Below are positions 2-20,336 of a stretch of DNA of 20,673 bases, one piece after another. Origin of the DNA: a virus. The notes under the pieces were generated by a model that had not been told where the DNA came from, searched no databases, and saw only the letters and a list, made by a program, of their open reading frames with translations. The translations under genes and the position numbers were made by a program. The stretch covers positions 1 through 20,673 of IMG/VR virus record IMGVR_UViG_3300025704_000145. The stretch is one strand, 5' to 3'. The first letter of the stretch is position 1. Every line of letters starts with the position of its first letter.

Positions 2-1048
2 CCAGATAAAAATTGGTTTGATGAAAACACGAACAACATGCAAGGTACTTTTCAAGGTTGCCATAGTTTGAGATATTTACCGCCTGGTTTATTTGGTGAC
101 CTTCCAAACTGTACTAATTTTTATAGAACGTTTCGAAACTGTTTTATGCTAGAGCATATTCCGTATATGGGTATAAGCACTACTGTTTCTGAAGTATGGC
201 TAAGAGAAATGTTTTTACAATGTTCAAGGTTAAAAGCTATACCGCAAGGCTTTAATATATCAAAGGTTAGAGGCAGTCAGGCTCTATATGGGTTGTATGG
301 TACATTTAATGGTTGCAATAGTATTCAAGATTGGTCTCTTTTAAATATAGAACAGCCAGAAACAACGCTGTTTGATATGTCTCTTGCGTTTGGGGAATAC
401 TCCGCCTATTTCCCGAACATAGCAGTATTTCCATATATAGGTCAATTTAGTAAGGTTTATGATTTATTCGCCACATTTCAGTATAAAAGTATAAGGCGGT
501 TTAGTTCGCAATACACATATCTCGATTTTACAAATTGCACACGATTAAGACAAACATTCAGTTCGTGTTACTATTTAGAAGAGTTACCACCAATACACGT
601 ATCAGCTTTAACTCAATCGTTTTCTTTAGCTTATACCTTTCAAAATTGCTATCGGTTAAGAGAAGTTACTATTGTTGGAATGACAGCAGGTCCGGCCGAT
701 GGCGAATATACTAGATGTTTTTTAAATTGTTATGATTTACAAAAAATAAGCGGTATAGATTGGTCTTATACTAATGATTCTGGCGATTTGAGTAGCGCGT
801 TCCAGTCTTGTCGAAACTTAGCGTATATTGATTTTCCAGGTGGACCTACCGATGAAACAGGATTTAAACATTCTGTTGTACTGAGTTATATTCGTTTAGA
901 TCGAGATGCAATACTAAATATTTTTAATCACTTATGCACAATAACTCATTCTGCCACTATTGATCTTAGGTACAATAGTTACACTGCTGATTTGACAGCT
1001 GCTGATAAACTTATAGCAACCAATAAGGGGTGGACAATATCATTATAA
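2..1048 (+). CDS. BspA-like leucine-rich repeat protein, 3' part (likely fibre/adhesin)
   Basis: The reading frame is open to the left edge of the window (no stop before the first in-frame ATG at 38), so this is the C-terminal part of a longer protein. The visible ~349 residues consist of irregular repeats of the BspA/DUF285 type: a phenylalanine, a cysteine a few residues later, then Leu-x-x-Ile (for example FRNCFMLEHI, FLQCSRLKAI, FLNCYDLQKI). The end (ATIDLRYNSY... then NKGWTISL) is the usual closing motif of such repeat domains. Proteins of this class are bacterial surface adhesins; in phages they are usually found as virion-attached fibres or decoration proteins, so host binding is an inference. 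A second gene of the same class lies at 19161-20336. The small gene at 1051 starts 2 bases after this stop and is probably cotranslated. Confidence 0.8.
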   Translation, partial: PDKNWFDENTNNMQGTFQGCHSLRYLPPGLFGDLPNCTNFYRTFRNCFMLEHIPYMGISTTVSEVWLREMFLQCSRLKAIPQGFNISKVRGSQALYGLYGTFNGCNSIQDWSLLNIEQPETTLFDMSLAFGEYSAYFPNIAVFPYIGQFSKVYDLFATFQYKSIRRFSSQYTYLDFTNCTRLRQTFSSCYYLEELPPIHVSALTQSFSLAYTFQNCYRLREVTIVGMTAGPADGEYTRCFLNCYDLQKISGIDWSYTNDSGDLSSAFQSCRNLAYIDFPGGPTDETGFKHSVVLSYIRLDRDAILNIFNHLCTITHSATIDLRYNSYTADLTAADKLIATNKGWTISL

Positions 1049-1050
1049 TT

Positions 1051-1290
1051 ATGGAAGAAGAAAACGGATTTTATAAACTAGAAGTCGGAACAGAACACTC
1101 AGTATTGATCTTTGCTACTCGTTTAGAGAATAAGAATTTTACCTTGGACATTAGTCTAAAGGACACATATGATTACCCAGTCGATGGGTGGACATACTTT
1201 AACTCATTGAACGAAGCATGTGAATCTTTTGGTGTAGATCCAGAAGAATTCAGAGAAGATCTTTTTCCAACTGAGGAAGAAATAACATAA
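1051..1290 (+). CDS. Small acidic protein paired with the BspA-like gene
   Basis: A 79-residue acidic protein of unknown function. An in-frame GTG at 1030 lies inside the preceding gene; I prefer the ATG at 1051, which is 2 bases after the upstream stop and begins MEEENGFYKLEVG. The C-terminus is strongly acidic (EEFREDLFPTEEE). There is no signal peptide or membrane segment. Its position directly behind the BspA-like gene is mirrored by the 59-residue acidic gene at 20338 behind the second BspA-like gene, so a role as an assembly partner or chaperone of the repeat protein is possible. That is inference from position only. Confidence 0.65.
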   Translation: MEEENGFYKLEVGTEHSVLIFATRLENKNFTLDISLKDTYDYPVDGWTYFNSLNEACESFGVDPEEFREDLFPTEEEIT

Positions 1291-1316
1291 ATAACACAAC
1301 TCAAAAACACAAATTG

Positions 1317-1324
1317 TATAAATA
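1317..1324 (+). promoter_or_regulatory. T4-type late promoter TATAAATA (capsid operon)
   Basis: Perfect match to the T4 late -10 element, in an intergenic gap, 5 bases before the ATG at 1330. In T4 the element spans about -13 to -6, which would put +1 at the A of that ATG. It probably drives the gp68-like, 21, 22, 23 operon. Confidence 0.8.
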
Positions 1325-1329
1325 GAACT

Positions 1330-1491
1330 ATGGAAAATACAGAAAAACTTTTTAACGCTCTAGTATCTGGAGATTCTGAAGAAATTCAATCCTCATTCGC
1401 CTCTACGGTTGGTGAAAAGATGCAGCAAGCTCTTGATATCCGAAAGGTTAGAGTCACATCAAATGTTTTCAACACACAAGGAGAAGACTAA
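1330..1491 (+). CDS. 68: Small prohead core protein (gp68-like)
   Basis: A 53-residue protein beginning MENTEKLFNALVSGD and containing EKMQQALDIRKVRV, then SNVF. Short proteins with an ALxxRKVxVxxxxF-like core occur just before the prohead protease gene in T4-like phages and correspond to the gp67/gp68 prohead core components. T4 gp68 is much longer (about 141 residues), so the assignment rests on position and the short C-terminal motif. It starts just downstream of a late promoter and its stop codon is directly followed by the ATG of gene 21. The end of this gene carries an AAGGAG-type ribosome binding site for gene 21 (about 1479-1484). It could equally be called a gp67 analogue. Confidence 0.65.
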   Translation: MENTEKLFNALVSGDSEEIQSSFASTVGEKMQQALDIRKVRVTSNVFNTQGED

Positions 1492-2136
1492 ATGAAATTA
1501 ATTACAGAGCACTTAGACTCAGTTCAGTATATTACTGAAGCAAACGATAAAGGTGAAAAGAATGTTTTCATCGAAGGCGTTTTTATGCAAGCGGAGCAAG
1601 AAAATCGCAACAATAGAATTTATCCTAAAGCAATACTGACAGAAGCAACTGCCAAGTATGTTAAGGAGCAGGTTAAAACTGGAAGAGCAGTTGGTGAATT
1701 GAATCACCCTGAAGGTCCACAAATTAACCTAGATAAAGTTTCACATCGTATTACTGAACTTAATTGGAACGGTAATAATGTTGTTGGAAAAGCACTGATA
1801 CTAGACACGCCAATGGGTAAAATCGTGAAAGGTCTCGTCGAAGGCGGGTGTAAGTTAGGTGTTTCAAGTCGTGGTATGGGTACTGTTGAGAGAAGAGAAA
1901 ATAAGTCATATGTTAAGAATGATTTTATTCTTAATACGATTGATATTGTTCAAGATCCCTCTGCACCATCTGCCTTCGTTGAAGGTATTATGGAAGGTGT
2001 AGAATGGGTTTGGGATAATGGTCTTCTAAAACCTCAGCAAATTGAAAGTTATGAGACAGAGATCAGAAAAGCATCTTCGAGTCGCCTCGCTGAGGCACAA
2101 GAAAATATTTGGCAAGATTTCCTCTCCAATCTCTAA
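1492..2136 (+). CDS. 21: Prohead core protease (gp21)
   Basis: A 214-residue protein similar to T4 gp21, the serine-type maturation protease of the prohead. It cuts scaffold and capsid proteins after (L/I)xE sites once the shell is built. Family features are visible: the NRNxRIYP region near residues 39-45, GELNHPEG with candidate catalytic His72, the VSSRGMG segment with candidate nucleophile Ser125 or Ser126, and VQDPSAPSAFV with Asp155. Length matches T4 gp21 (about 212). A good Shine-Dalgarno sequence ends about 8 bases before the ATG, inside the previous gene. It lies between the core protein and the gp22 scaffold, as in T4. Confidence 0.93.
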   Translation: MKLITEHLDSVQYITEANDKGEKNVFIEGVFMQAEQENRNNRIYPKAILTEATAKYVKEQVKTGRAVGELNHPEGPQINLDKVSHRITELNWNGNNVVGKALILDTPMGKIVKGLVEGGCKLGVSSRGMGTVERRENKSYVKNDFILNTIDIVQDPSAPSAFVEGIMEGVEWVWDNGLLKPQQIESYETEIRKASSSRLAEAQENIWQDFLSNL

Positions 2137-2157
2137 TCTAAAAAAGAAAGTAAATAT

Positions 2158-3423
2158 ATGTCAGAAGATATTATTGAAGACATCACTGAAGAAGCTTTGC
2201 TTGAAGATCAGGAGCTTGTGCAGGATACATCTGCCGAAGAAGTTACTGAACAACAAAGCTATTCTGATGCAATTAAAAGCGTTCTTCTAGGAGAATCTAA
2301 AGCGTCTAAAAAAGAATCAGATTCCGAAGAGGAAGAAGATGAAAAAGAAGACGAAGAAGATGAAATGGAAGAAGGCTATAAAAAGAAAACTGAATCTGAA
2401 GATGAAGACGAAGAGTCTGAAGAAGAAGATGAAGATGAAATGGAAGAAGCTGCTCCTACACCTACTGCTAGTGGTAATGCTACTGATGCTGTTGTCGTTA
2501 AAGACGGCGAAGCAGAAGCAGCAAAAACTGCTGATAGCATTACGAAGTCAGAGCCAAAATCTGCTGCTACTCCAAAGGGTACTGGCAAAGCTGCGTCCGT
2601 TAAGACAGCAGATGAAGTCGATTCTGTCAAATCAGTTGATAAAGCTGCTAAGACAAAACCTAAGGCAACATCTGAGGATCTTGACATTCTCATCTCAGCT
2701 GAAGCAAACTTGACAGAAGATTTCAAAGCAAAGGCATCGACATTGTTCGAGGCTGCCGTATCTGCAAAGATCGTTGCTGAGAAAGAACGCTTGCAAGAAG
2801 AGCATGAACAAAATCTAGTTGAAGAAGTTACTGAAATCAGAGAAAGCCTTATTAACAAGATCGATGACTATCTTAATTATGTCGTTGAATCATGGGTTGA
2901 GGAAAATCAGGTTGCAGTAGATACTAAACTTCGCACTGAAATCGCTGAAGGCTTTATGGGTTCTCTTAAGGATCTGTTTGTTGAAAGCTATATTGAGGTG
3001 CCTGAAGCAAAAACTGATCTGTTTGATGAGCTTGAAAAAGAATCTCTAGAGGTTAAAGAATCTCTAGAAATCGCTACTAACGAAGTGGCTGACCTTTCCG
3101 AAAAGGTTGAGGAGCTTACACGCGCTAAAATTCTTGCAGAGCAAACTAGAGATCTTGCTTCTACACAAGTAGAAAAAATGAAGGCTCTTACTGAAGAAGT
3201 TGAATTTGTATCCGAAGAAGCATTTGCTGAAAAGGTTGCAACTATCAAAGGTTCAGTATTTAAGTCTTCTTCAAAATCAGAAGATATCGTTGAAGATACA
3301 CATTCAGAAACTGAAGTTATCGTAGAGGGTGAATCAGGTATTAATGAGAATGTCTCTAATGACATGAAGAAATACCTTTCGGCTCTTACGCGAATCAAAG
3401 AAAATAACCCAAACGGTAAATAA
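2158..3423 (+). CDS. 22: Prohead core scaffold protein (gp22)
   Basis: A 421-residue, very acidic protein between the gp21 protease and the gp23 capsid gene, the place of T4 gp22, the main internal scaffold that is degraded by gp21. Residues ~55-100 are a low-complexity run of Glu/Asp/Lys/Ser, followed by an Ala/Lys/Thr-rich stretch to about residue 170. From about 175 to the end the protein is predicted alpha-helical with coiled-coil character (LTEDFKAKASTLFEAAVSAKI, then repeated E/L/K heptads). That later part carries the recognisable gp22 family similarity. T4 gp22 is about 269 residues, so the acidic N-terminal extension is unusual. Several LxE sites suit gp21 cleavage. The low complexity gives long spurious reading frames on both strands. 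Confidence 0.88.
   Translation: MSEDIIEDITEEALLEDQELVQDTSAEEVTEQQSYSDAIKSVLLGESKASKKESDSEEEEDEKEDEEDEMEEGYKKKTESEDEDEESEEEDEDEMEEAAPTPTASGNATDAVVVKDGEAEAAKTADSITKSEPKSAATPKGTGKAASVKTADEVDSVKSVDKAAKTKPKATSEDLDILISAEANLTEDFKAKASTLFEAAVSAKIVAEKERLQEEHEQNLVEEVTEIRESLINKIDDYLNYVVESWVEENQVAVDTKLRTEIAEGFMGSLKDLFVESYIEVPEAKTDLFDELEKESLEVKESLEIATNEVADLSEKVEELTRAKILAEQTRDLASTQVEKMKALTEEVEFVSEEAFAEKVATIKGSVFKSSSKSEDIVEDTHSETEVIVEGESGINENVSNDMKKYLSALTRIKENNPNGK
3037..3068 (+). repeat. 14-base direct repeat inside gene 22
   Basis: AAAGAATCTCTAGA occurs at 3037-3050 and again at 3055-3068, coding KESLE twice in a helical segment of the scaffold. It looks like a small local duplication within a coiled coil. 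Confidence 0.6.
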
Positions 3424-3464
3424 TTTACCACACTTACAACAACAACAAATAGAAAAATATTAAT

Positions 3465-4727
3465 ATGTTTAATTCAGAAACAGACATGAAAAAGTGGGCT
3501 CCAGTGCTTGATCACTCAGACGCTGCTCCCATCCAAGACAACTACCGTAAGGCTGTTACAGCTAAGCTTCTTGAAAATACAGAAATCGCTCTTAAGCAAG
3601 AGTCTTCTGCATACGGTTCTCTTAACGAGAATCAATCAACAAGTGCTGTAAGCAACTTCGATCCAGTTCTTATCTCTCTTGTACGTCGTGCAATGCCTAA
3701 CCTTATCGCTTATGATATCGCAGGTGTTCAGCCAATGTCAGGTCCTACTGGCCTCATCTTCGCTATGAAGAGCCGCTATAACGACGGTGCTGCAGAGTCT
3801 CCAGCTTCAGATCTTATCTCCACAGGTGATACAGAAGCTCTCGGTCTCAACGAGCCTAATACAGCTTTCTCTGGTACTGCAGGAACTACTGCTGGTGTTG
3901 ATGGAGAAGCTATCGTCACTGCTACTGGTGAAGTTCTCACTGGTTCTGGCTTCGGCGATATGGGTTTCACAATCGAAAAGGCTACTGTAGAAGCTAAGAC
4001 ACGCGCTCTTAAGGCTGAATACACAATGGAGCTTGCACAAGATTTGAAGGCTATCCATAACTTGGATGCTGAATCAGAGCTTGCTAACATCCTTTCGACT
4101 GAAATCCTTGCTGAAATCAATCGTGAAGTTATTCAAACTATCAACGCAGTTGCTAAGCCTGGTTTCCAAAATGAGGTCAACTCTCCTGTAAACAATACCT
4201 TTGACCTTGCATCAGATGCTGACGGTCGTTGGGCAGTTGAAAAGTTCAAGAGCCTTATGTTCCAAATCGAGATTGAAGCAAATACTATTGCTAAGCAAAC
4301 TCGTCGCGGTAAGGGTAACTTCGTTGTTTGCTCGAGCAATGTAGCTTCGGCTCTTGCAGCTTCAGGTGCTTTGGATTACGCTCCAGCTCTTGCAACTAAC
4401 CTTAATGTTGATGACACCGGTAACACTTTCGCAGGTGTTCTTAATGGTCGCACTAAGGTTTACATCGACCCATATGCAGCTGCTGACTATGTAACAGTTG
4501 GATATCGTGGAACTAATCCATACGATGCTGGTATGTTCTATTGCCCATATGTACCACTTACTATGGTACGTGCAGTTGATGAAGAAACCTTCCAACCGAA
4601 GATTGCTTTCAAGACTCGTTACGGCATGCAACAGAATCCATTCGTCGGTACAACTACCGGTGTTGGTTTAGTTAATGAAAATCCTTACTTCCGTAACTTC
4701 AGCGTTGCTAATATCAACGTTGCTTAA
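3465..4727 (+). CDS. 23: Major capsid protein precursor (gp23)
   Basis: A 420-residue protein with clear similarity to T4 gp23, which has the HK97 fold and forms the hexamers of the head. Diagnostic segments are RRAMPNLIAYDIAGVQPMSGPTG (about residues 72-94), MGFTIEKATVEAKTRALKAEY, ELAQDLKAIHNLDAE, ILSTEILAEINREV, GKGNFVVCSSNVASAL and the C-terminal FKTRYGMQQNPF. A likely gp21 cleavage site is Leu53-Asn54-Glu55, which would remove the N-terminal propeptide (T4 is cut after residue 65). The protein is about 100 residues shorter than T4 gp23 (521), mainly because the region between the GVQPM motif and MGFTIEK is reduced, which is where T4 carries its insertion domain. It ends just before a strong terminator. 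Confidence 0.96.
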   Translation: MFNSETDMKKWAPVLDHSDAAPIQDNYRKAVTAKLLENTEIALKQESSAYGSLNENQSTSAVSNFDPVLISLVRRAMPNLIAYDIAGVQPMSGPTGLIFAMKSRYNDGAAESPASDLISTGDTEALGLNEPNTAFSGTAGTTAGVDGEAIVTATGEVLTGSGFGDMGFTIEKATVEAKTRALKAEYTMELAQDLKAIHNLDAESELANILSTEILAEINREVIQTINAVAKPGFQNEVNSPVNNTFDLASDADGRWAVEKFKSLMFQIEIEANTIAKQTRRGKGNFVVCSSNVASALAASGALDYAPALATNLNVDDTGNTFAGVLNGRTKVYIDPYAAADYVTVGYRGTNPYDAGMFYCPYVPLTMVRAVDEETFQPKIAFKTRYGMQQNPFVGTTTGVGLVNENPYFRNFSVANINVA

Positions 4728-4752: not shown

Positions 4753-4785
4753 AAGTGGAGGTCTTTCGAGACCTCCACTTTTTTT
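4753..4785 (+). terminator. Rho-independent terminator after gene 23
   Basis: A perfect 12-bp stem (4753-4764 with 4769-4780, AAGTGGAGGTCT and its complement) closed by the stable TTCG tetraloop and running into a T tract to 4785. The next late promoter starts 2 bases later. Confidence 0.95.
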
Positions 4786-4786
4786 G

Positions 4787-4794
4787 TATAAATA
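4787..4794 (+). promoter_or_regulatory. T4-type late promoter TATAAATA (tail gene)
   Basis: Perfect late element directly behind the gene 23 terminator, 5 bases before the ATG at 4800. This is the same spacing as at 1317-1330, so the transcript should start at the start codon. Confidence 0.8.
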
Positions 4795-4799
4795 CAGGT

Positions 4800-5267
4800 A
4801 TGACACAGCTAACAGATAACTTTAATATGCTATCTCCTACGGGTTTTAGACTAACAATTGAGGCACCCACGTTCTCAAACTTAGAATACTTTATAACAAC
4901 AGTCAATCTACCTACAGTCAATTTGCCTGAAGTTTCGGCTGGTTATAAGAACTACCAGGGCTTCGTAGCAGGTGATACTCTTACGTACGATGCAATTGAT
5001 ATACAATTTCTTATCGATGAGGATATGAAAAATTATGTCGAGGTATTCAATTGGATGAAAAGTAATGCAAATGATAACACTTCGACTAAACATGATATCA
5101 TTTTAACGATATTGTCTAGTCACAATAATTTAAATAAGCAAATTCGATTTGTCCGTGCAATTCCAACTTCTTTGGGAGGTGCAGAGTTTACTACTCAAGC
5201 AACAGATATTGAATATCTGCAAGGTACAATATCATTTAGGTACGATTACTTTGAAATAATTGCGTAG
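4800..5267 (+). CDS. Tail-tube-fold structural protein
   Basis: A 155-residue protein beginning MTQLTDNFNML. An in-frame ATG at 4755 would start inside the terminator and upstream of the late promoter, so 4800 is preferred. The pattern SPTGFRLTIEAPTFSNLEYFI, then TVNLPTVNLPEV, GDTLTYDAIDIQFLIDEDMKNYVEVFNWM is that of virion proteins with the T4 gp19-type tube fold in marine T4-like phages. The last segment is a beta strand plus a conserved helix used in ring contacts. Whether it is the tube subunit (gp19), the tube terminator (gp3) or a baseplate tube initiator (gp54/gp48 type) cannot be settled here. Its place between gene 23 and uvsY is where related phages put a tail completion gene. It is expressed alone from a late promoter. 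Confidence 0.62.
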   Translation: MTQLTDNFNMLSPTGFRLTIEAPTFSNLEYFITTVNLPTVNLPEVSAGYKNYQGFVAGDTLTYDAIDIQFLIDEDMKNYVEVFNWMKSNANDNTSTKHDIILTILSSHNNLNKQIRFVRAIPTSLGGAEFTTQATDIEYLQGTISFRYDYFEIIA

Positions 5268-5275
5268 ATTTACTT

Positions 5276-5283
5276 TATAAATA
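5276..5283 (+). promoter_or_regulatory. T4-type late promoter TATAAATA (uvsY)
   Basis: Perfect late element in the gap before uvsY, 10 bases from its ATG at 5294, predicting a leader of about 5 bases. In T4, uvsY also has a late promoter. No T-run terminator separates it from the previous gene. Confidence 0.75.
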
Positions 5284-5293
5284 ACTATATATT

Positions 5294-5740
5294 ATGATAC
5301 TTGATGAAATACTAAAAATGTGGGGTGAAGATGTTAAAATCGACGACCTCAATCTTGATGAAGAAACAACGAAGTCTGCCAAACTTCACTCTAAGTACCT
5401 TGAGTTATTCTCTCTAGCTAAGTTACAATTGAAGAGGAATGAGATGGAACTTAATACAGTTCGTAGAGATAAATGGCTTTACTATAACGGTAAGATGACA
5501 AAGGAAGAGATTGATAAAAGATCGTGGAAATATGATCCATTTGATGGTATGTCAAAGCCTTTAAAATCCGATATGGAAATGTTCTATAAAACTGATGAAG
5601 ATATCGTTCGTGTAACAGGTAAAATTGAATACCAAAAGACTATGGTGGAAACTCTCGAAGAGATTATGAATAACCTTCGGTGGAGGCATGGTCATATTAA
5701 GAACATCTTAGAGTTCAAAAAGTTTACATCTGGAGCGTAA
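5294..5740 (+). CDS. uvsY: UvsY-like recombination mediator
   Basis: A 148-residue, charged, mostly helical protein. It ends GHIKNILEFKKFTSGA, which parallels the C-terminus of T4 UvsY (KHIQDMRAFEAGK), and it is followed by uvsW as in T4. In T4, UvsY helps load the UvsX recombinase on gp32-coated single-stranded DNA. Other family-like segments are SKYLELFSLAKLQLKRNEMEL near residues 34-54 and YYNGKMTKEEIDKR with PFDGMSKPLKSDMEMFYKTDEDI. Sequence identity to T4 is low, so the call combines weak similarity, length (T4 137) and synteny. uvsX itself is not in this window. Confidence 0.8.
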   Translation: MILDEILKMWGEDVKIDDLNLDEETTKSAKLHSKYLELFSLAKLQLKRNEMELNTVRRDKWLYYNGKMTKEEIDKRSWKYDPFDGMSKPLKSDMEMFYKTDEDIVRVTGKIEYQKTMVETLEEIMNNLRWRHGHIKNILEFKKFTSGA

Positions 5741-7777: not shown

Positions 7778-7806
7778 TTTACTTGTTAGAAATTATATGG
7801 TATAAT
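7778..7806 (+). promoter_or_regulatory. Early-type promoter of gene 55
   Basis: TTTACT (7778-7783), 17-base spacer, TATAAT (7801-7806) with TGG before the -10, then 7 bases to the ATG at 7814. +1 is predicted at about 7813, giving an almost leaderless mRNA. Confidence 0.8.
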
Positions 7807-7813
7807 ATATATT

Positions 7814-8413
7814 ATGAAAATGAATCCTAAGACAAAGAGAGTACGTCGCGCCAAAGAGCATTACGTAAACAATAAGGAATTCTCACAAGCTGTGGTAGAT
7901 TATGTCACTAGCGTCAATGAATCCCGAGCTAGCAAAAACGAAGAACCAGTAATTACCGATTATATTGGTAGATGCTTTTTGAAGATATGCGATGGTCTAT
8001 CCCATAAGCCAAACTTTGTAGGCTATACATATCGAGAAGAAATGGTTATGGATGCGGTAGAGAATTGCATTAAAGCTATTATGAACTATGATGTAAAGAA
8101 AGCTACAAGAACAGGATTGCCAAACGCATTCGCCTACTTTACTCAAATATCGTATTACGCATTTCTACGGCGCATTGCGAAGGAGAAGAAGCAGCAGGAT
8201 ATTAAGGAACGATACATGGCTTATGCAGGTGTAGATGCTTTTGCTGATTTTAATTCATCTATGCCGGACGCAAATTCACAAAACATTGTTGATCAAATTA
8301 GAAATAAGAATCAGTCGATCAAAAATAAGGATAATGCGCTTAAGGAGTTTGGAAAGCAAACTAAAAAAGAATCCAAAGAGAAGCTACCTCGTGGAATTGA
8401 GCTCTTTTTTTAG
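7814..8413 (+). CDS. 55: Late-transcription sigma factor (gp55)
   Basis: A 199-residue homologue of T4 gp55 (185 residues), the divergent sigma factor that directs host RNA polymerase to TATAAATA promoters. Shared segments are HYVNNKEFSQAVVDYV (residues ~17-32), ICDGLSHKPNFVGYTYREEMVMDAVENCIKAI (sigma region 2 core) and NAFAYFTQISYYAFLRRIAKEKK. The last residues, GIELFF (194-199), resemble the hydrophobic C-terminal motif by which T4 gp55 contacts the gp45 sliding clamp. ATG 7814 is chosen because the promoter points to it; an ATG two codons later is also possible. The gene has its own early-type promoter, as expected for a factor needed before late transcription. Its end overlaps the next gene. 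Confidence 0.93.
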   Translation: MKMNPKTKRVRRAKEHYVNNKEFSQAVVDYVTSVNESRASKNEEPVITDYIGRCFLKICDGLSHKPNFVGYTYREEMVMDAVENCIKAIMNYDVKKATRTGLPNAFAYFTQISYYAFLRRIAKEKKQQDIKERYMAYAGVDAFADFNSSMPDANSQNIVDQIRNKNQSIKNKDNALKEFGKQTKKESKEKLPRGIELFF

Positions 8414-11726: not shown

Positions 11727-11754
11727 TTTACTTTTGATCCAGACATGGTATAAT
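11727..11754 (+). promoter_or_regulatory. Early-type promoter of the HExxH-VWA gene
   Basis: TTTACT (11727-11732), 16 bases, TATAAT (11749-11754) with TGG before the -10. The leader to the ATG at 11781 is about 20 bases. Confidence 0.8.
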
Positions 11755-11770
11755 AGATCTATAACAGTTA
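11743..11770 (+). repeat. 28-bp promoter/leader repeat, copy 1
   Basis: Bases 11743-11770 are identical to 14094-14121. The repeat covers the -10 region and the first ~10 transcribed bases (AGATCTATAACAGTTA); after one mismatch TTAG also matches. The flanks differ, so this is a specific shared control segment. Confidence 0.9.
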
Positions 11771-11780
11771 GTTAGAGCTT

Positions 11781-14009
11781 ATGGAAAACATATTAGACCT
11801 TCAAAATCAATCCTCTCTGGCCAAATTATTGGCCACAGAGAACATTACTGTCACTCACAGTAAGTCCTTATCGACAGCATACTTCGACGTTAAGAATCGT
11901 GTGCTTGGCCTTCCAGTTTGGAAGAATCAAGGCAAGGTTGTTTATGACATGCTTGTTGGTCACGAAGTTTCCCATGCTCTCTATACTCCGCAGAAAGAGT
12001 TTTCTGAATTCCTTGAAGTTGAAGGTCGCTCTCACTTTGATATCCTTAATATTGTTGAAGATATTCGCATTGAGCGACTTATCAAATTAACGTATGCAGG
12101 TATGCCACGCATCTTCAACGGTGCTTATAAGAACCTTGTAGAATCTGACTTCTTCAAGGTTGAAGGCAAAGACTTTAACGAATTAAACTTCCTCGATCGC
12201 CTTAACCTTCACGCTAAAATCGGTCCTCACGCAAATATTCCTCTCTCAGAGGAAGAACTCGCTCTTTATAATAAGTGCATGAAAGCAGAATCTTTTGAAG
12301 ATGTTGTTGCTCTTTATCACGAAATTAAAGCTTTTACTGAAGAAGAAGCTAAGCAAAAGGCCGAAGAGAAGTCTGAAGCCGAAGACGAAGAATCTGACGA
12401 AGAATCTGCCGAAGATCAAAATTCAGAAGAAGGAGATGAAGCTGCTGACGACGAAGAGTCTAAAGATAGTGCTGAATCATCCAACTCTGCTGACGACGGC
12501 GAAGAATCATTTGCTAATGACACTAACGATACCGAAGAAGACAGCGATGCTGATACTTCTGAAGGAGTTGAAAGTGATACCGAATCTGTAGAAGAATCAC
12601 TCACTAGCGCATCAGACGAAGATGCTGGTGGTGCTTCTTCTTCCTCAACTGGCGAAGATCTTGAACCAACTCATAAGTCTGAAACACAAGAGGCATTTAA
12701 AAAAGCTATTGCAGATGATACTGAGGATACCGACCATCAAGTGATCACATTGATGCCAACAAAGAAGAATATCGAGCAACATATCATTCCCTATAGTAAG
12801 GTGTTAGATGGTCGACCAAGTCTTAGATCGGCACTCGCAAACTGCCGCCATCCTGATGATATTGATTCAGCGGTCGCCAGCATCAACTCTAAGCTCATTG
12901 ACTTTAAGAAAAAAACCAACAAAAAGGTTGGTGTTCTTGTTCGAGAGTTCGAACGTCGTAAAGCTTCATACCAGTATTCTCGAGCACAAGAGTCCCGCCG
13001 CGGATCTTTGGATGTCAATAACTTACATAAGTACAAATACGACGATCAAATTTTCCAAACTACTACGCGATTGGCCGATGCTAAAAGCCACGGTATGATT
13101 TTCTTTGTTGACTATTCAGGTTCAATGAGCATCGTTCTTCGCGATGTCTTAGAACACACTCTTAATCTAGTACATTTCTGCAAGAGAGTTGGCATACCAT
13201 TTGAAGTTTATGGCTTTACTTCTGACTATCGTCAAGAGTGTGATCTTGACGATAGTCAATCTGATCTCGAATTTGATATGTCTGGCACGATGATCTTCGA
13301 GTTATTCTCAAGCAAAATGTCAAAATCAGACTATGAAAAAGCTTTTGTACAAGTTTCACAGCAGATCTTATTGTCGGGTTCTAACTTTTCTCAACATGCT
13401 TGCTCACAATACGAATGGCTTGGAGGCACACCTCTCGACGCAACTCTCCTAGCAGCACATCACATCGTAAATAAGTTTAATAAGCGATACTCAGTACAAA
13501 AGACAAACGTTATTATACTCAGCGACGGCGATTCTCATCGCTGCGAACCAAAGGGTGCTAGCTATCGCACACGATCGTACTTGACGAATATCAACGGCAA
13601 ACAATACGATATACCAAAACGCGGTATGACCGCTCGCCTAACTAAAATCTTATCTGAAACAACTGGAGCAAACCTCATTGGATTCTTTCTTCCACAGTGT
13701 AACAGAACAATCCGCACGCAATTGTCCGAGATGTCACCTTCTAAATGGGACGATATAAGTGCTAAAGTTCGGAAATACAAGAAAGACGGTTTCGCTGTAG
13801 CGCATAATGCTAAAGGGTACGACTCATATTTCTTGCTTCCAAGTGATGTTAGAATCTCGGACGATGAATTCAAATTCGGTTCTGATTCAGTCGACATAAC
13901 TGATAGTCGCGCAGCACAGACAAAGCTTGCCCGAGACTTCGCTAAGCACAATCTTAAGAATCGTCAAAGCCGCATCATCTTAACCAAATTCGCAGAGTTG
14001 ATTGCTTAA
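11781..14009 (+). CDS. HExxH metallopeptidase-like + VWA protein (CobT/DUF2201-like)
   Basis: A 742-residue protein in three parts. (1) Residues ~1-180: a zincin-like domain with HEVSH at 61-65 (HExxH) and a downstream NIVEDIRIE (90-98), which could give the third zinc ligand (Glu93). (2) Residues ~182-300: a very acidic Glu/Asp/Ser linker. (3) Residues ~310-742: a VWA domain with MIDAS motifs Asp444-Tyr-Ser446-Gly-Ser448, Thr550 in GGTPLD and Asp582-Gly-Asp. This architecture is like CobT (cobaltochelatase VWA subunit) and, for the metallopeptidase half, like DUF2201 proteins. The partner AAA+ ATPase follows with an almost identical promoter. No CobN-like chelatase is present, so cobalamin synthesis is not supported; a MoxR-VWA remodelling or peptidase role is inferred. 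Confidence 0.85.
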   Translation: MENILDLQNQSSLAKLLATENITVTHSKSLSTAYFDVKNRVLGLPVWKNQGKVVYDMLVGHEVSHALYTPQKEFSEFLEVEGRSHFDILNIVEDIRIERLIKLTYAGMPRIFNGAYKNLVESDFFKVEGKDFNELNFLDRLNLHAKIGPHANIPLSEEELALYNKCMKAESFEDVVALYHEIKAFTEEEAKQKAEEKSEAEDEESDEESAEDQNSEEGDEAADDEESKDSAESSNSADDGEESFANDTNDTEEDSDADTSEGVESDTESVEESLTSASDEDAGGASSSSTGEDLEPTHKSETQEAFKKAIADDTEDTDHQVITLMPTKKNIEQHIIPYSKVLDGRPSLRSALANCRHPDDIDSAVASINSKLIDFKKKTNKKVGVLVREFERRKASYQYSRAQESRRGSLDVNNLHKYKYDDQIFQTTTRLADAKSHGMIFFVDYSGSMSIVLRDVLEHTLNLVHFCKRVGIPFEVYGFTSDYRQECDLDDSQSDLEFDMSGTMIFELFSSKMSKSDYEKAFVQVSQQILLSGSNFSQHACSQYEWLGGTPLDATLLAAHHIVNKFNKRYSVQKTNVIILSDGDSHRCEPKGASYRTRSYLTNINGKQYDIPKRGMTARLTKILSETTGANLIGFFLPQCNRTIRTQLSEMSPSKWDDISAKVRKYKKDGFAVAHNAKGYDSYFLLPSDVRISDDEFKFGSDSVDITDSRAAQTKLARDFAKHNLKNRQSRIILTKFAELIA
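13223..13258. repeat. Perfect 15-bp inverted repeat inside the VWA coding region
   Basis: Arms TGACTATCGTCAAGA (13223-13237) and its exact complement (13244-13258) with a 6-base loop GTGTGA. It codes residues ~481-493 (SDYRQECDLDDSQ), just after the first part of the VWA domain, without disturbing the frame. Confidence 0.9.
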
Positions 14010-14077: not shown

Positions 14078-14105
14078 TGTACAAATCTCCCCAACATGGT
14101 ATAAT
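14078..14105 (+). promoter_or_regulatory. Early-type promoter of the cobS-like gene
   Basis: TGTACA (14078-14083), 16 bases, TATAAT (14100-14105) with TGG before the -10; same spacing and same downstream 16 bases as the promoter at 11727-11754. The leader to ATG 14135 is about 24 bases. Bases 14010-14077 of this gap contain no gene. Confidence 0.75.
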
Positions 14106-14121
14106 AGATCTATAACAGTTA
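14094..14121 (+). repeat. 28-bp promoter/leader repeat, copy 2
   Basis: Identical to 11743-11770. It places the AAA+ gene under the same control segment as the VWA gene. Confidence 0.9.
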
Positions 14122-14134
14122 ATTAGTATAAATT

Positions 14135-15286
14135 ATGAATAAAAACAAATCCCTCACAGAAGCCCTCAAATCTCGCGGGCAATTTAGTTACCGCAATCAA
14201 GAGATTCTCGAGATTGCACACGGTCTTGGAATTGACCACAACGATGCCTACAAGGTTATTCGTAAAATGTATAAACTCTCTCGCGGTGTTTATACTCTTG
14301 ATGCACCTTCTGCTCCAACACCTTCAGCAGAACCTTCTCCTTCGACAGCAATCGCAAACCACGTCGAACTTAGAGGAGTCTCCTCTGTCTCTGACGACGA
14401 GATCTATGTTCCAGCTGTGGACCCAACATTTATCAAGTGGGGAGAGTACAATACGATCATGAAGATTCTCAAGTCGAATCTCTTCTTTCCAGTGTACGTC
14501 TCTGGACTCTCTGGAAACGGTAAGACAATGATGATCGAACAAGCCTGCGCGAAAGCAAAGCGTGAATATGTTCGAGTTCAAATCTCGCCTGAAACTGACG
14601 AAGATGATTTGATTGGTGGCTTTCGCCTCATCAATGGTGAAACAGTCTTTCAAAAAGGACCAATCATCAAAGCGATGGAACGTGGATGTGTTCTCCTCAT
14701 TGACGAGATTGATCGTGCTACGAATAAGATCATGTGTCTACAAGGTGTACTTGAAGGCAATCCAGTTCTGCTAAAGAAAACTGGTCAAGTGATCGCCCCA
14801 GCCCCCGGTTTTAACGTGATCGCTACAGCCAATACTAAGGGTCGTGGCTCAGACGATGGCCGATTTACTTCAGCTTCGATCATTGACGATGCATTCCTTG
14901 AGCGATTCGTCTGCGCGATTGATCAAGAATTTCCTACTCCAGTCATCGAGAAGAAAATCGTTATGGCTCATATGAGTAAGTTCGGCGTTGAAGCAGAAGA
15001 ATTTGCTGATAAGCTTATAGCTTGGTCGAATGTTATTCGCAAGACGTTTGAAGCTGACGGTGTAGATGATATCGTCTCGACTCGCCGTCTATGTCACATC
15101 GTTAAGACTTACTCTATCTTTGAGGACCGATTAAAGTCTATTTCAATGTGCATCAGTCGCTTCGACGATGATACGCGTACAGCGTTCTTAGACCTCTACA
15201 CCAAGGTTGACGAGAGCCAACTTACTGAAGATGGAGAGATCGTGATCGAGGGCGAAATTACACCAGAAGAAGAAGCACCATTTTAA
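14135..15286 (+). CDS. cobS: CobS/MoxR-type AAA+ ATPase
   Basis: A 383-residue AAA+ protein. Residues 1-55 form a small helical, winged-helix-like N-terminal domain (LTEALKSRGQFSYRNQEILE...), followed by a Pro/Ser/Thr/Ala linker (57-75). The ATPase domain has Walker A GLSGNGKT (124-131), the CobS-typical QISPETDEDDLIGGFRL (149-165), Walker B LLIDEID (187-193), sensor 1 region NVIATANT and arginine-rich FLERFVCAI. The C-terminus is acidic. Phage homologues are commonly named CobS after the cobaltochelatase ATPase; the MoxR class generally works with VWA partners. Here that partner is the gene immediately upstream, and both share a 28-bp promoter repeat. The target is unknown. Confidence 0.9.
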   Translation: MNKNKSLTEALKSRGQFSYRNQEILEIAHGLGIDHNDAYKVIRKMYKLSRGVYTLDAPSAPTPSAEPSPSTAIANHVELRGVSSVSDDEIYVPAVDPTFIKWGEYNTIMKILKSNLFFPVYVSGLSGNGKTMMIEQACAKAKREYVRVQISPETDEDDLIGGFRLINGETVFQKGPIIKAMERGCVLLIDEIDRATNKIMCLQGVLEGNPVLLKKTGQVIAPAPGFNVIATANTKGRGSDDGRFTSASIIDDAFLERFVCAIDQEFPTPVIEKKIVMAHMSKFGVEAEEFADKLIAWSNVIRKTFEADGVDDIVSTRRLCHIVKTYSIFEDRLKSISMCISRFDDDTRTAFLDLYTKVDESQLTEDGEIVIEGEITPEEEAPF

Positions 15287-15386: not shown

Positions 15387-15686
15387 ATGAACGGAATAAA
15401 ATACGACAACTGCAAACCAGACTATAGTCTGATACCTCCACACGCGCTCGACGATGTTGCGAAGGTACTGACCTATGGAGCTCAAAAGTACGACAGAAAC
15501 AATTGGCTCGAACTCGAGAATCTCAATGAACGATATTTTGCTGCAGCTCAACGACACATGTGGGCTATTCAAAAAGGTGAAACACATGACGATGAGACAG
15601 GCATTCATCACTCAGCACATGCTATTTGTTGTATGATGTTTATGCTTGAATTTAGTTATTTACAAAACAACAAAAACAAGATATAA
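15387..15686 (+). CDS. DUF5664 / MazG-like nucleotide pyrophosphohydrolase-type protein
   Basis: A 99-residue helical protein with the DUF5664 pattern: KYDNCKPDYSLIPPHALDDVAKVLTYGAQKYDRNNW (residues ~5-40), RYFAAAQRHMWAIQKGE and DDETGIHHSAHAICCMMFMLE. This family is related to all-alpha NTP pyrophosphatases and is annotated in phages as a dATP/dGTP diphosphohydrolase domain; the acidic residues and ETGIHH segment are candidate metal ligands. It would act on the dNTP pool, which suits a site between replication genes. Its stop codon overlaps the -10 of the gene 45 promoter. I see no clear promoter of its own behind the terminator at 15334. Confidence 0.82.
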   Translation: MNGIKYDNCKPDYSLIPPHALDDVAKVLTYGAQKYDRNNWLELENLNERYFAAAQRHMWAIQKGETHDDETGIHHSAHAICCMMFMLEFSYLQNNKNKI

Positions 15687-15687
15687 T
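15659..15687 (+). promoter_or_regulatory. Early-type promoter of gene 45
   Basis: TTTACA (15659-15664), 17 bases, TATAAT (15682-15687), 7 bases to ATG 15695; predicted +1 at 15694. It lies inside the 3' end of the preceding gene. Confidence 0.85.
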
Positions 15688-15694
15688 ATATATT

Positions 15695-16369
15695 ATGAAA
15701 ATTAGTAAAGAAACGTTAGAGGTGCTGAAGAACTTTTCAGCTATTAATCCAAACCTTGTTATCGAAAAGGGTAATAAGTTATCTACAATCGCAGAAGTTA
15801 AGAATATTATGGCTTCGTGTATTGTCCAAGAAACTTTTGATAAGGACATTGGCATTTACGACTTAAATGAATTCTTATCGGCGCTTTCTCTTATCGAGGA
15901 TCCAGAGTTTGAATTTGGTGATAGCTCTGCGACTATTAAATCAGATCTGACATCGCTTACATATCGCTATGCAGATAAGTCTATCCTTACGTCTCCTGAG
16001 CGTGGTGTTAATATGCCTGAAGGAGAAGTCAATGTTGAACTATCAGCTGAAGTCATTAATCAAATTCGCAAAGCAGGTGCTGCGCTTAATCACCCTGTTG
16101 TATCAATCACAACAAATGCAGGAGATAGTAAACTCTATTTACAAGTTAAGGATCCAAGCAACAGCTCTTCGAACATGTTTCAACAAGAGATCGCTTCAAC
16201 ATATGATCCAGAAGCTGCCTTTGATTTCCAGTTCCTAATTTCTAATCTAAAACTAATTGCAGGTGATTATCAAGTTGCAGTAAGTTCTAAGTTAATTTCG
16301 CACTGGAAATGTATAAATAACAGTCCAGTCGAATATTGGATTGCTCTCGAGAAGACATCCGTTACGTAA
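15695..16369 (+). CDS. 45: Sliding clamp (gp45)
   Basis: A 224-residue protein matching T4 gp45 (228 residues), the trimeric DNA clamp that tethers the polymerase and, in T4, also activates gp55-dependent late transcription. Family segments include MKISKETLEVLKNFSAINPNLVIEKGNKLSTI at the N-terminus, ASCIVQETFDKDIGIYDLNEFLSALSLI and the C-terminal YWIALEKT. It is first in the order 45-44-62-regA, as in T4, and starts one base after the predicted transcription start. No Shine-Dalgarno sequence is visible. Confidence 0.95.
   Translation: MKISKETLEVLKNFSAINPNLVIEKGNKLSTIAEVKNIMASCIVQETFDKDIGIYDLNEFLSALSLIEDPEFEFGDSSATIKSDLTSLTYRYADKSILTSPERGVNMPEGEVNVELSAEVINQIRKAGAALNHPVVSITTNAGDSKLYLQVKDPSNSSSNMFQQEIASTYDPEAAFDFQFLISNLKLIAGDYQVAVSSKLISHWKCINNSPVEYWIALEKTSVT
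16312..16319 (+). promoter_or_regulatory. Possible late promoter TATAAATA inside gene 45
   Basis: Perfect TATAAATA near the 3' end of gene 45, 74 bases before the ATG at 16394. It could provide late transcription of the small acidic gene, or be a chance match. Confidence 0.3.
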
Positions 16370-16699: not shown

Positions 16700-16728
16700 T
16701 TTACAAGTGTAAGCATTAATGTTAGAAT
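16700..16728 (+). promoter_or_regulatory. Early-type promoter of gene 44
   Basis: TTTACA (16700-16705), 17 bases, TAGAAT (16723-16728) with TG one base before, then 7 bases to ATG 16736. Predicted +1 at 16735. It follows the terminator by 3 bases. Confidence 0.8.
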
Positions 16729-16735
16729 ATATATT

Positions 16736-17674
16736 ATGAACGAATTTTTATGGGTCGAACGTCATCGACCAAGCCGCATCGAAGAGTGTATCCTTCCAAA
16801 ATCATTGAAGGCCACATTCACTGAAATTGTTAAACACGGCGAATTGCATAATATGCTGTTATCTGGCACAGCTGGTTTAGGTAAGACCACAGTCGCGCGA
16901 GCACTATGTAATGAGTTAAATTTAGAGTATCTCTTGATCAATTCATCTGAAGAGAGCGGCATTGATGTTCTTCGTTCGAAGATTAAACAGTTCGCCTCAA
17001 CTGTGTCATTACATGGTGGCAAATATAAAGTGGTTATTCTCGACGAGGCTGATTACTTAAACGCTTCATCAACGCAGCCAGCGCTGCGAGGCTTCATTGA
17101 GGAGTTCAGCTCTAATTGTCGATTTATCCTTACATGCAATTTTAAGAATCGTATCATTGAGCCTCTCCATTCGCGTTGTGCGGTCATTGAGTTCAATACT
17201 AATAAGAAGCAACTTGCTGAATTAGCTGGACAGTTCATGAAGCGCCTTCAGACTATCCTTGACGAAGAAGGCATTAAGTATAATAACAAAGTGATTGCTG
17301 ATCTTATTATGCGCTATGCTCCAGATTGGAGACGCGTACTTAATGAATGCCAACGCTATTCTGCATCAGGGGAAATCACACCAGATATTCTCGTAGGCAT
17401 GTCTGATCAAAACGTTGCTCAGCTTATTTCGCACCTCAAGACACGAGACTTCAAGAGCATGCGCAGTTGGGTAACAAATAATTCCGACGTTGATTCATCA
17501 GTGATCTTTCGAAAGATATATGATTCTCTATATGACTACGCAGAAGGTCAATCTATTCCGAGTATTATTCTTATCTTAGCTGACTACCAATATAAGGCGG
17601 CATTTGTAAGTGATAGAGAATTGAATATCGTAGCGTGCTTAACTGAAATCATGGCATCATCGCAATGGAAGTAA
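16736..17674 (+). CDS. 44: Clamp loader large subunit (gp44)
   Basis: A 312-residue AAA+ protein matching T4 gp44 (319 residues), four copies of which combine with one gp62 to open and load the gp45 clamp. Visible motifs are WVERHRPSRIEECILP at the N-terminus, Walker A GTAGLGKTT (44-52), Walker B VVILDEADYL (99-108), sensor 1 ILTCN and the SRC arginine-finger motif (146-148), all typical of RFC-type loaders. The C-terminal collar region follows. Its stop overlaps a short membrane-protein gene at 17665. Confidence 0.96.
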   Translation: MNEFLWVERHRPSRIEECILPKSLKATFTEIVKHGELHNMLLSGTAGLGKTTVARALCNELNLEYLLINSSEESGIDVLRSKIKQFASTVSLHGGKYKVVILDEADYLNASSTQPALRGFIEEFSSNCRFILTCNFKNRIIEPLHSRCAVIEFNTNKKQLAELAGQFMKRLQTILDEEGIKYNNKVIADLIMRYAPDWRRVLNECQRYSASGEITPDILVGMSDQNVAQLISHLKTRDFKSMRSWVTNNSDVDSSVIFRKIYDSLYDYAEGQSIPSIILILADYQYKAAFVSDRELNIVACLTEIMASSQWK

Positions 17675-18253: not shown

Positions 18254-18308
18254 AGAGTTTAATATTATAAATAGATCTTTAACGATGTAACTTATAATAT
18301 TAAACTCT
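18254..18308. repeat. Perfect 17-bp inverted repeat before regA
   Basis: AGAGTTTAATATTATAA at 18254-18270 is the exact complement of 18292-18308, with a 21-base loop. The 3' arm ends 1 base before ATG 18310. The left arm shares its end with the late promoter at 18266. No T tract follows, so it is not a typical terminator. Confidence 0.92.
18266..18273 (+). promoter_or_regulatory. T4-type late promoter TATAAATA (regA)
   Basis: Perfect late element overlapping the 5' arm of the inverted repeat. Predicted start is about 18279-18281, so the transcript would lack the 5' arm. Confidence 0.7.
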
Positions 18309-18309
18309 C

Positions 18310-18732
18310 ATGATTGAACAAGAATTAGTGCAATGGGATCCAAGCCAAATGCTTGAGATCTCCCTAGAAGAACCAGATGATTTTCTTAAGATTAAGGAAA
18401 CTCTTACACGAATAGGGATATCTTCAAAGAAGGATCGCAATACACTATTCCAGAGTTGTCATATTCTACACAAGCAAGGTAGGTATTTCATTGTTCACTT
18501 TAAAGAACTCTTCATGTTAGATGGCAAACCATCAAACTTAACTAATGAAGATGTCTGCCGACGCAACTCTATAACAACTCTTTTGTCGGATTGGGGATTG
18601 CTGGATATAGTAAATTTAGATCAAGCAAAAAATAAAACTACACTAAGACATATTAAGATTATTTCTCATCGTGATAAAGCGGAGTGGAATTTGGAATCGA
18701 AATATTCGATTGGTAATACTAAAAGCGTTTAA
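18310..18732 (+). CDS. regA: RegA translational repressor
   Basis: A 140-residue homologue of T4 RegA (122 residues), which binds the initiation region of many early mRNAs, including those of clamp and loader genes, and its own, and blocks ribosome entry. Strong matches are EEPDDFLKIKETLTRIGISSKKDRN, FQSCHILHKQGRYFIVHFKELFMLDGK and SIGN near the end. The ATG at 18310 gives a 13-residue N-terminal extension relative to T4. An internal ATG at 18349 (MLEISLEEP, aligning with T4 MIEITLKKP) would give 127 residues and may be the true start. The gene sits after 62 as in T4 and its TAATG end overlaps the next gene. Confidence 0.94.
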   Translation: MIEQELVQWDPSQMLEISLEEPDDFLKIKETLTRIGISSKKDRNTLFQSCHILHKQGRYFIVHFKELFMLDGKPSNLTNEDVCRRNSITTLLSDWGLLDIVNLDQAKNKTTLRHIKIISHRDKAEWNLESKYSIGNTKSV

Positions 18733-19142: not shown

Positions 19143-19150
19143 TATAAATA
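19143..19150 (+). promoter_or_regulatory. T4-type late promoter TATAAATA (second BspA-like gene)
   Basis: Perfect late element 10 bases before ATG 19161, the same spacing as at uvsY; predicted leader about 5 bases. It supports a virion role for the gene. Confidence 0.8.
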
Positions 19151-19160
19151 ACATATATAC

Positions 19161-20336
19161 ATGGCTTGGCAAGATATACCTAATAATCCATACTGGCAAT
19201 ATGACGACGCTCCACTTGACCCAGGTGGGGCAGAAACTGCGCTATGGGCGACTAGCACAAATGGTGTTCGGCTGAGCGTTAGAGGTGAGGAAATCTATGT
19301 TAATTGTAGACATAAACTTCTACACCCAACACAGGATTCTTTTCCTAATGAAATAAATAAAACTTTTTGGACAGGTCCCTTGCTCTTTACTGTCGATACT
19401 TCTTTGGGTTCAGACCTTATAGTGGGATTTGATAGTGCCCAAGTTTACGATGCAACTATAGATTGGGGAGACGGAAGTAATCCGTTGACTGTGGGGCCGG
19501 GAGAAGGAACAGTAACAAAGCAGTATAGCTCGGTTGGAACATATCAGGTAAGGGTCAGCGGAACATTTGCTCCCGAAATAATACTTTCTTCAAATCAAAA
19601 TATAGTTTCAGTAGAGAATCTTGGAACGCTTGGATATGTTGATCTATCAAATATGTTCCGTAATTGCCAAAACTTGGTGAGTTTTAATGCTGGAAAGACT
19701 GATACTTCCAGTGTGACAGATCTTACTGGTATGTTTACTGATTGTATTTCTTTATCAAGCGCAAACGTAAGCACTCTTGATACATCAAACGTTACTATTA
19801 TTAATTCGATGTTCCAAGGTTGTAATAGTCTCACTACTTTGGTTTTAAGTAACTGGGATACATCCAATGTAGGTTATTTTGTTAATGCATTTAGGGGGTG
19901 TACATCTCTAGAAACATTATTATTGCCAGACAATTTTGTTACATCCAACGCACTTCAGATAACTTCGGTTTTTTATGACTGCCAAAGTCTCCAAAGCCTT
20001 GATGTGTCAACTTGGGATACTTCTAATGTCCGTCGTATGACTGCAATTTTTGTTAGGTGTTTTGGTCTTACTGATATTGTTGGACTAGAAACAAATATTA
20101 GTATTAATGGTCTCAATGTTACAGACGGTTTAACCAACACTGCCAATGGTGTCCCAAATCAAGGAACTGATTATGACGCATTGCTCATTAACTGGGAAGC
20201 AAATTTACCAACTTCTGGATTAGCTCAAAGTCCAAGATTCAACCTAAGCAAAGTTACCACTACGGCTGGTAACAATGCTAGAATTTCCCTTATCAATAAC
20301 TACAACTGGGTAGTCTTAGACGGAGGCCCACTATAA
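19161..20336 (+). CDS. BspA-like leucine-rich repeat virion protein with a PKD-like domain
   Basis: A complete 391-residue protein. The N-terminus (MAWQDIPNNPYWQYDDAP) is a phage-type attachment segment. Residues ~70-135 form a PKD-like beta-sandwich (DATIDWGDGSNPL... QYSSVGTYQVRVSG). From ~145 to 315 there are DUF285/BspA repeats with the typical motif LDTSNVTxxNSMFQGCNSLTTLxLSNWDTSNV, repeated about every 23-25 residues. The C-terminus ends in a WxxNLPxSGL and NYNWVVLDGG closing segment. Such proteins are probably fibres, neck whiskers or capsid decorations that bind host or surface glycans (inference). It has its own late promoter. A small acidic gene follows after 1 base, repeating the arrangement at the left end of the window. 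Confidence 0.88.
   Translation: MAWQDIPNNPYWQYDDAPLDPGGAETALWATSTNGVRLSVRGEEIYVNCRHKLLHPTQDSFPNEINKTFWTGPLLFTVDTSLGSDLIVGFDSAQVYDATIDWGDGSNPLTVGPGEGTVTKQYSSVGTYQVRVSGTFAPEIILSSNQNIVSVENLGTLGYVDLSNMFRNCQNLVSFNAGKTDTSSVTDLTGMFTDCISLSSANVSTLDTSNVTIINSMFQGCNSLTTLVLSNWDTSNVGYFVNAFRGCTSLETLLLPDNFVTSNALQITSVFYDCQSLQSLDVSTWDTSNVRRMTAIFVRCFGLTDIVGLETNISINGLNVTDGLTNTANGVPNQGTDYDALLINWEANLPTSGLAQSPRFNLSKVTTTAGNNARISLINNYNWVVLDGGPL

Follow-up and report, generated by a model that had tools for sequence, protein, structure and literature searches.

The stretch of DNA analysed here, called the window, comprises 20.7 kb (20,673 nucleotides) of a virus record with 38% G+C and is a fragment of a T4-like phage. 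Its genes include a gp67-like gene, gp21, gp22, gp23, a gp3-like tail gene, uvsY, a UvsW-like helicase gene, gp55, gp45 and regA. The genes gp47, gp46, gp44 and gp62 are likely present as well, as named from sequence and gene order. On the plus strand lie uvsY (5294..5740; phrog_231, E 6.5e-37), the late sigma factor gene gp55 (7814..8413; phrog_234, E 3.7e-52), the sliding clamp gene gp45 (15695..16369; phrog_223, E 3.9e-65) and the putative gp44-like clamp loader gene of 312 aa (16736..17674). The nearest cultured relatives by gp23, at about 60% identity, are the Pelagibacter phage HTVC008M, the Methylophilales Melnitz phages and phage C48C1. Proteins built of LRR-like repeats, in which C, N and L recur at certain positions, are encoded near both ends of the window (2-1048 and 19161-20336), and the two are possibly phage adhesins. 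The second corresponds to a 391-aa gene with no assigned function (19161..20336, plus strand), and its PHROG matches come from segments of very long phage proteins.

Late promoter elements and the genes behind them

The late promoter element TATAAATA occurs seven times in perfect form in the window, always on the plus strand, while shuffled sequences contained 2.0 +/- 1.3 copies and none of 100 shuffles reached seven. As in the T4 late system (gp55/gp33/gp45), the same 8-bp element stands upstream of late genes, and both gp55 and gp45 are encoded in the window. The arrangement TATAAATA-N5-ATG is found twice, and the reversed control pattern is not found in the window. In the first case (1317-1324, plus strand) the element is followed by gaact and the ATG at 1330, in the second (4787-4794, plus strand) by caggt and the ATG at 4800. 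We call the number of nucleotides between element and start codon the gap, and at this gap of 5 the predicted +1 is 1330 or 4800, the start codon itself. Two further plus-strand elements have a gap of 10: the one before uvsY (5276-5283) is followed by actatatatt and the ATG at 5294, with the predicted +1 at 5289, and the one before the 391-aa gene (19143-19150) by acatatatac and the ATG at 19161. The preliminary description had listed these four spacings, and all of them are exact in the sequence; the start codon coincides with the predicted +1 at 1317 and 4787 but not at 5276 and 19143. There is no room for a Shine-Dalgarno site at gap 5, and none was found upstream of the four short-gap genes of the window.

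The window also contains longer spacings. Upstream of regA, TATAAATA (18266..18273, plus strand) lies 36 nt before the ATG at 18310, so regA is leadered here, and in the relative G006 regA has TATAAATA at gap 5. A start-stop pair, ATG TAA, is present between this late element and regA (window 18266-18310), 11 nt past the element. A repeated block, GGTATAATAGATCTATAACAGTTA.TTAG, is found upstream of both the cobT-like and the cobS-like gene (window 11740-11781 and 14090-14135), and these genes have leaders of about 20-25 nt.

The gene at 1330 (1330..1491, plus strand) is a gp67-like small prohead core gene with a weak match to the prohead family phrog_1064 (E 0.0078). It opens the capsid operon, with gp21, gp22 and gp23 following, and is predicted to be leaderless. 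The downstream cistrons (1492..4727, plus strand) encode the gp21 protease (1492), the gp22 scaffold (2158) and the gp23 major capsid protein (3465), and gp21 carries an AAGGAG site. Gap 5 at the 1317 site is retained in the near relatives G001, G003 and G004 and is also seen in L003, L086, L006, L041 and L051; the counterparts have gap 6 in G002 and gap 11 in G006. A second candidate late promoter, CATAAATA, is located at 1286-1293 (plus strand), 36 nt before the ATG at 1330 and without a Shine-Dalgarno site. Since CATAAATA has an excess at gap 5 elsewhere (10 of 53), it is probably a working variant, and the capsid operon may thus have an additional transcript whose leader is about 31 nt long.

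The gene at 4800 (4800..5267, plus strand) encodes a gp3-like tail completion protein with the tail-tube fold (phrog_45, E 1.4e-28) and is likewise predicted to be leaderless. It lies between gp23 and uvsY, which is the position of gp3 (tail completion) in cyanophages, and its cyanophage homologues are annotated as gp3; the product is thus probably gp3-like and not the main tube protein gp19. A terminator hairpin of 12 pairs with a T run (4753..4780, plus strand) ends 6 nt before the late element, and the fold of 4755-4795 has a free energy of -17.9 kcal/mol (z -5.8). Hairpin and T run are retained in orthologues. TATAAATA stands exactly 5 nt before the ATG in all 25 near orthologues, defined as those aligned from the first residue, and additionally in L005 and L106, while the five bases of the gap vary (caggt, tagat, taagt, taaac, tatgt, catgt). 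Among the more divergent homologues the late element is absent upstream in six with 46-49% identity; others retain hairpin, element and gap. Pairwise comparison of codons 2-10 gives 192 synonymous differences and not a single nonsynonymous one, which indicates indirectly that the protein starts at the ATG at 4800. A downstream start was rejected in view of this coding constraint and of the absence of the second Met from many homologues. A GTG upstream at 4755 was also rejected as the start, as it lies inside the terminator and would be outside the transcript from the 4787 promoter.

At the locus that follows gp23, the gap is short in some relatives and 18-43 nt long in others, and several of the latter have AGGAG or AAGGAG. 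The short-gap state is uniform in the promoter-bearing relatives around the window, but about 11 changes are required over the gp23 tree, so that the state switches and the tree does not support the idea that the short gap arose only once at this locus. The gp19-like tube gene is leadered (gap 19-22) in G002, G006, G016, G018 and G023, in which the gp3-like paralogue has gap 5; G017, with its gp19 at gap 5, is the exception, making gp19 leadered in five of six genomes. From the spacing, control of dose is a possible role of this difference between the leadered gp19 and its predicted leaderless paralogue.

Spacing of the element in related genomes

Of 170 TATAAATA sites in ten related phage genomes, 30 are followed at a distance of exactly 5 nt by the ATG of an open reading frame, where about 0.8 would be expected. 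AT-rich DNA before start codons might produce nearby TATAAATA copies by chance, and the G+C content of the window (38%) and its AT-rich start regions point that way. However, 55 permuted 8-mers reached gap 5 in the same ten genomes at only 34 of 7,376 sites (0.46% against 17.6%; P ~1e-37), and neither T4 nor P-SSM2, which is similarly AT-rich, has gap-5 sites. Chance or composition is rejected by the permuted 8-mers and the control patterns, and we give it a negligible probability. Five further long contigs had 20 of 82 TATAAATA sites at gap 5 against 0.5 expected, and gaps 6 and 7 accounted for a further 15 and 6 sites, respectively; the contigs were chosen mainly for their length with the pattern counts seen beforehand, and therefore do not form a blind test.

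The gap distribution in the ten genomes has two parts, one from 4 to 12 with a spike at 5 and a nearly empty gap 4, and one from 16 onward. Gap 5 is the commonest single spacing in these phages. Orthologous sites are not independent of each other, and counting each protein family once still leaves 43 of 131 promoter-linked families with a gap-5 member. These include the gp3-like gene, the head-tail adaptor, the portal (gap 5-8), a baseplate wedge subunit, the DNA end protector and regA. Among single-base variants of the element the gap-5 excess survives only changes of the first position (NATAAATA), which is also the free position in the late motif NATAAATA of cyanophage S-PM2 (PMC2984593).

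Other T4-like phages are organised differently. Perfect TATAAATA at gap 5 was found at none of 32 sites in T4 and none of 29 in the two cyanophages Syn9 and P-SSM2. In these three phages the element is mostly 13-35 nt before the ATG, so that only the long class is present, and gaps 4-8 are empty except for one NATAAATA in P-SSM2. No gap-5 match was found in S-PM2, phiM12, DLP6, KVP40, X1, S-CRM01, BUCT-ZZ01, CPt10 or S-SKS1, and there is one each in RB49 and Vibrio phage 1.081.O. The cultured marine T4-like phages HTVC008M, Mosig and Melnitz (Kyanoviridae) share the gap-5 class with 5, 2 and 2 perfect sites; gap-5 sites of HTVC008M (KC465899) include those at positions 31132 and 49760.

The preliminary description had suggested a genome-wide scan of gaps 5 and 10 and had named a lack of enrichment as the outcome that would speak against its reading. 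For gap 5 this outcome did not occur. Gap 10, on the other hand, is rare outside uvsY, where it is exact in 26 of the 33 orthologues carrying NATAAATA; we therefore reject it as a second general class. The 10-nt spacing at 5276 and 19143 and a predicted leader of about 5 nt stand as described, but gap 10 is a trait of uvsY, and genes at this spacing would at best be near-leaderless. Upstream of uvsY in L228, L231, L233, L234, L237, L239 and L240 there is an in-frame ATGATG, the first ATG of which is at gap 7 from AATAAATA. The variant TATAAATC is found before uvsY at gap 5 or 11 in L245, L246, L262 and L270 and is perhaps a shifted late promoter consensus of that branch.

Predicted transcription start

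The first base of the T4 late element is T(-13), approximately one helical turn upstream of the transcription start (PMC2988020). By this geometry +1 would be six nucleotides past the element, and a gap of 5 would place it on the A of the ATG. Several features of the sites agree with this geometry, which the preliminary description had applied. C or T precedes the ATG at 30 of 30 gap-5 sites compared to 50.6% at ordinary ATGs (P 1.3e-9), and position -1 is a pyrimidine at all 77 distinct TATAAATA gap-5 sites (78 of 80 with all NATAAATA variants included). In leadered promoters of the same phages, A is found at the predicted +1 in 42 of 59, the highest value among nearby positions. All 44 start codons at gap 5 are ATG, with no GTG and no TTG, and a comparable alignment, described below, is seen for sigma70-type promoters at gap 6. 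A terminator-like hairpin precedes 49% of the gap-5 sites, 12% of the leadered sites and 1.3% of random positions.

An alternative is that the late promoters are real but initiate a few nucleotides away (e.g. at -3 or +3), which would result in very short leaders or in loss of the first AUG and use of a later start. The choice of start site by RNA polymerase is somewhat flexible, and the enrichment also extends to gaps 6-8, as in the five further contigs, so the position is not absolutely fixed; the sites at gaps 6-12 do not match a strict placement of +1 on the A of the ATG. Against a displaced start, gap 5 is the most frequent spacing and gap 4 hardly occurs, the pyrimidine at -1 is invariant in the 77 sites, the leadered promoters peak for A at the same +1, and codons 2-10 of the gp3-like gene are constrained as coding sequence. 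We consider a displaced start unlikely compared with initiation on the start codon.

Three sigma70-type promoters on the plus strand of the window are similarly placed, each 7 nt before an ATG: TTTACT-17-TATAAT with an extended TG (7778..7806) before gp55 at 7814, TTTACA-17-TATAAT (15659..15687) before gp45 at 15695, and TTTACA-17-TAGAAT (16700..16728) before the gp44-like gene at 16736. The spacer between -10 and ATG is the same 7 nt, atatatt, in all three. TATAAT peaks at gap 6 in the ten genomes (22 against 5.0 expected, or 11 against 1.3 if a -35 element is required) and in the five further contigs (7 against 1.2 expected). The signal is weaker than that of the late promoters, and with a pyrimidine at -1 in 11 of 16 gap-6 sites the bias at this base is unclear. 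The sigma70 -10 element spans -12 to -7, so gap 6 would likewise set +1 on the A. That the two types of promoter are each placed at a distance of their own suggests that it is the start site which is aligned, and since the sigma70-type promoters lie at gap 6-7, leaderless initiation would not be confined to late genes. With regard to adaptation to the host, the gap-6 signal was absent in 400 kb of one Pelagibacteraceae genome, which may not be that of the host of the window and thus carries little weight, and a full-consensus sigma70 pattern was too strict for use on five SAR11 genomes.

It could also be argued that the messages are longer, through read-through or an upstream promoter, and that TATAAATA is an AU-rich landing site for ribosomes or S1 rather than a promoter. 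AU-rich leaders can aid translation without a Shine-Dalgarno site, and CATAAATA at 1286 could supply a leadered capsid message. A landing site would not account for spacing that is precise to one nucleotide, a substitution tolerance that matches the known late promoter motif, terminators directly upstream and a different optimum for sigma70 elements, and we regard this explanation as very improbable. Under the promoter reading, some gap-5 genes could in addition be transcribed from further upstream, through read-through or from another promoter (e.g. CATAAATA at 1286).

Proposed translation modes and known systems

The preliminary description had predicted leaderless late mRNAs, and enrichment, upstream terminators and coding constraint from the first codons agree with this prediction. 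We infer the 5' ends and leaderless translation from the spacing, its enrichment and conservation, the sequence signs at +1, the terminators and the coding constraint. At gap 5, host RNA polymerase with gp55 would read NATAAATA and initiate at the first base of the start codon; the mRNA would then begin with 5'-AUG and be translated without a leader or Shine-Dalgarno site. Gaps 6-8 would correspond to a leader of 1-3 nt or to a slightly shifted start, and uvsY to a leader of about 5 nt. The late promoters of the other class lie 16-45 nt upstream and would produce leaders that often have a Shine-Dalgarno site. A Shine-Dalgarno-like site is found in 17 of 18 leadered late genes in Melnitz, 6 of 6 in HTVC008M and 15 of 20 in Mosig, but only in 0 of 3, 2 of 12 and 0 of 9 short-gap genes, respectively; the comparison covers these three phages, as leadered sites are too few in the nearest relatives of the window, G001, G002 and G006.

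The coexistence of the two classes suggests that promoter spacing decides the translation mode gene by gene. On the sequence evidence it is likely that gap-5 late promoters lead to transcription from the start-codon A and to leaderless translation, with the spacing setting the mode. In this large marine T4-like group, many virion and replication genes would probably be expressed from leaderless mRNAs. More tentatively, and somewhat short of an even chance in our estimate, a dual programme could operate across a mostly uncultivated T4-like assemblage, in which the distance from gp55 or sigma70 promoters to the AUG selects leaderless or Shine-Dalgarno translation, perhaps for dose.

The textbook example of transcription coupled to replication is provided by the late genes of T4, which have leadered messages, and lambda cI transcribed from PRM is a leaderless mRNA. 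The genes described here resemble lambda cI and the leaderless genes of mycobacteria (PMC4633059) in the predicted 5'-AUG, the AUG start, the promoter directly upstream and the lack of a Shine-Dalgarno site. They differ from these known leaderless mRNAs in that a phage late sigma factor and many virion genes of lytic T4-like phages are involved.

In the sections available of the respective papers, late promoters of marine T4-like phages are given by motif only (PMC9004378), and a metagenomic study reports that the prediction of late promoters failed in pelagimyophages (PMC7029224); in those sections we found no discussion of the spacing between promoter and start codon. No report joining the T4 late promoter with leaderless messages was found in the literature searched, which excludes most subscription papers. 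The parts are known, and their combination is new within that literature. If the prediction is true, capsid and tail genes of widespread marine relatives are translated leaderless during lytic infection. As a guess, the short spacing explains the failed prediction of pelagimyophage late promoters. The spacing can also aid annotation there, since the promoter as well as the true start codon can be located by it.
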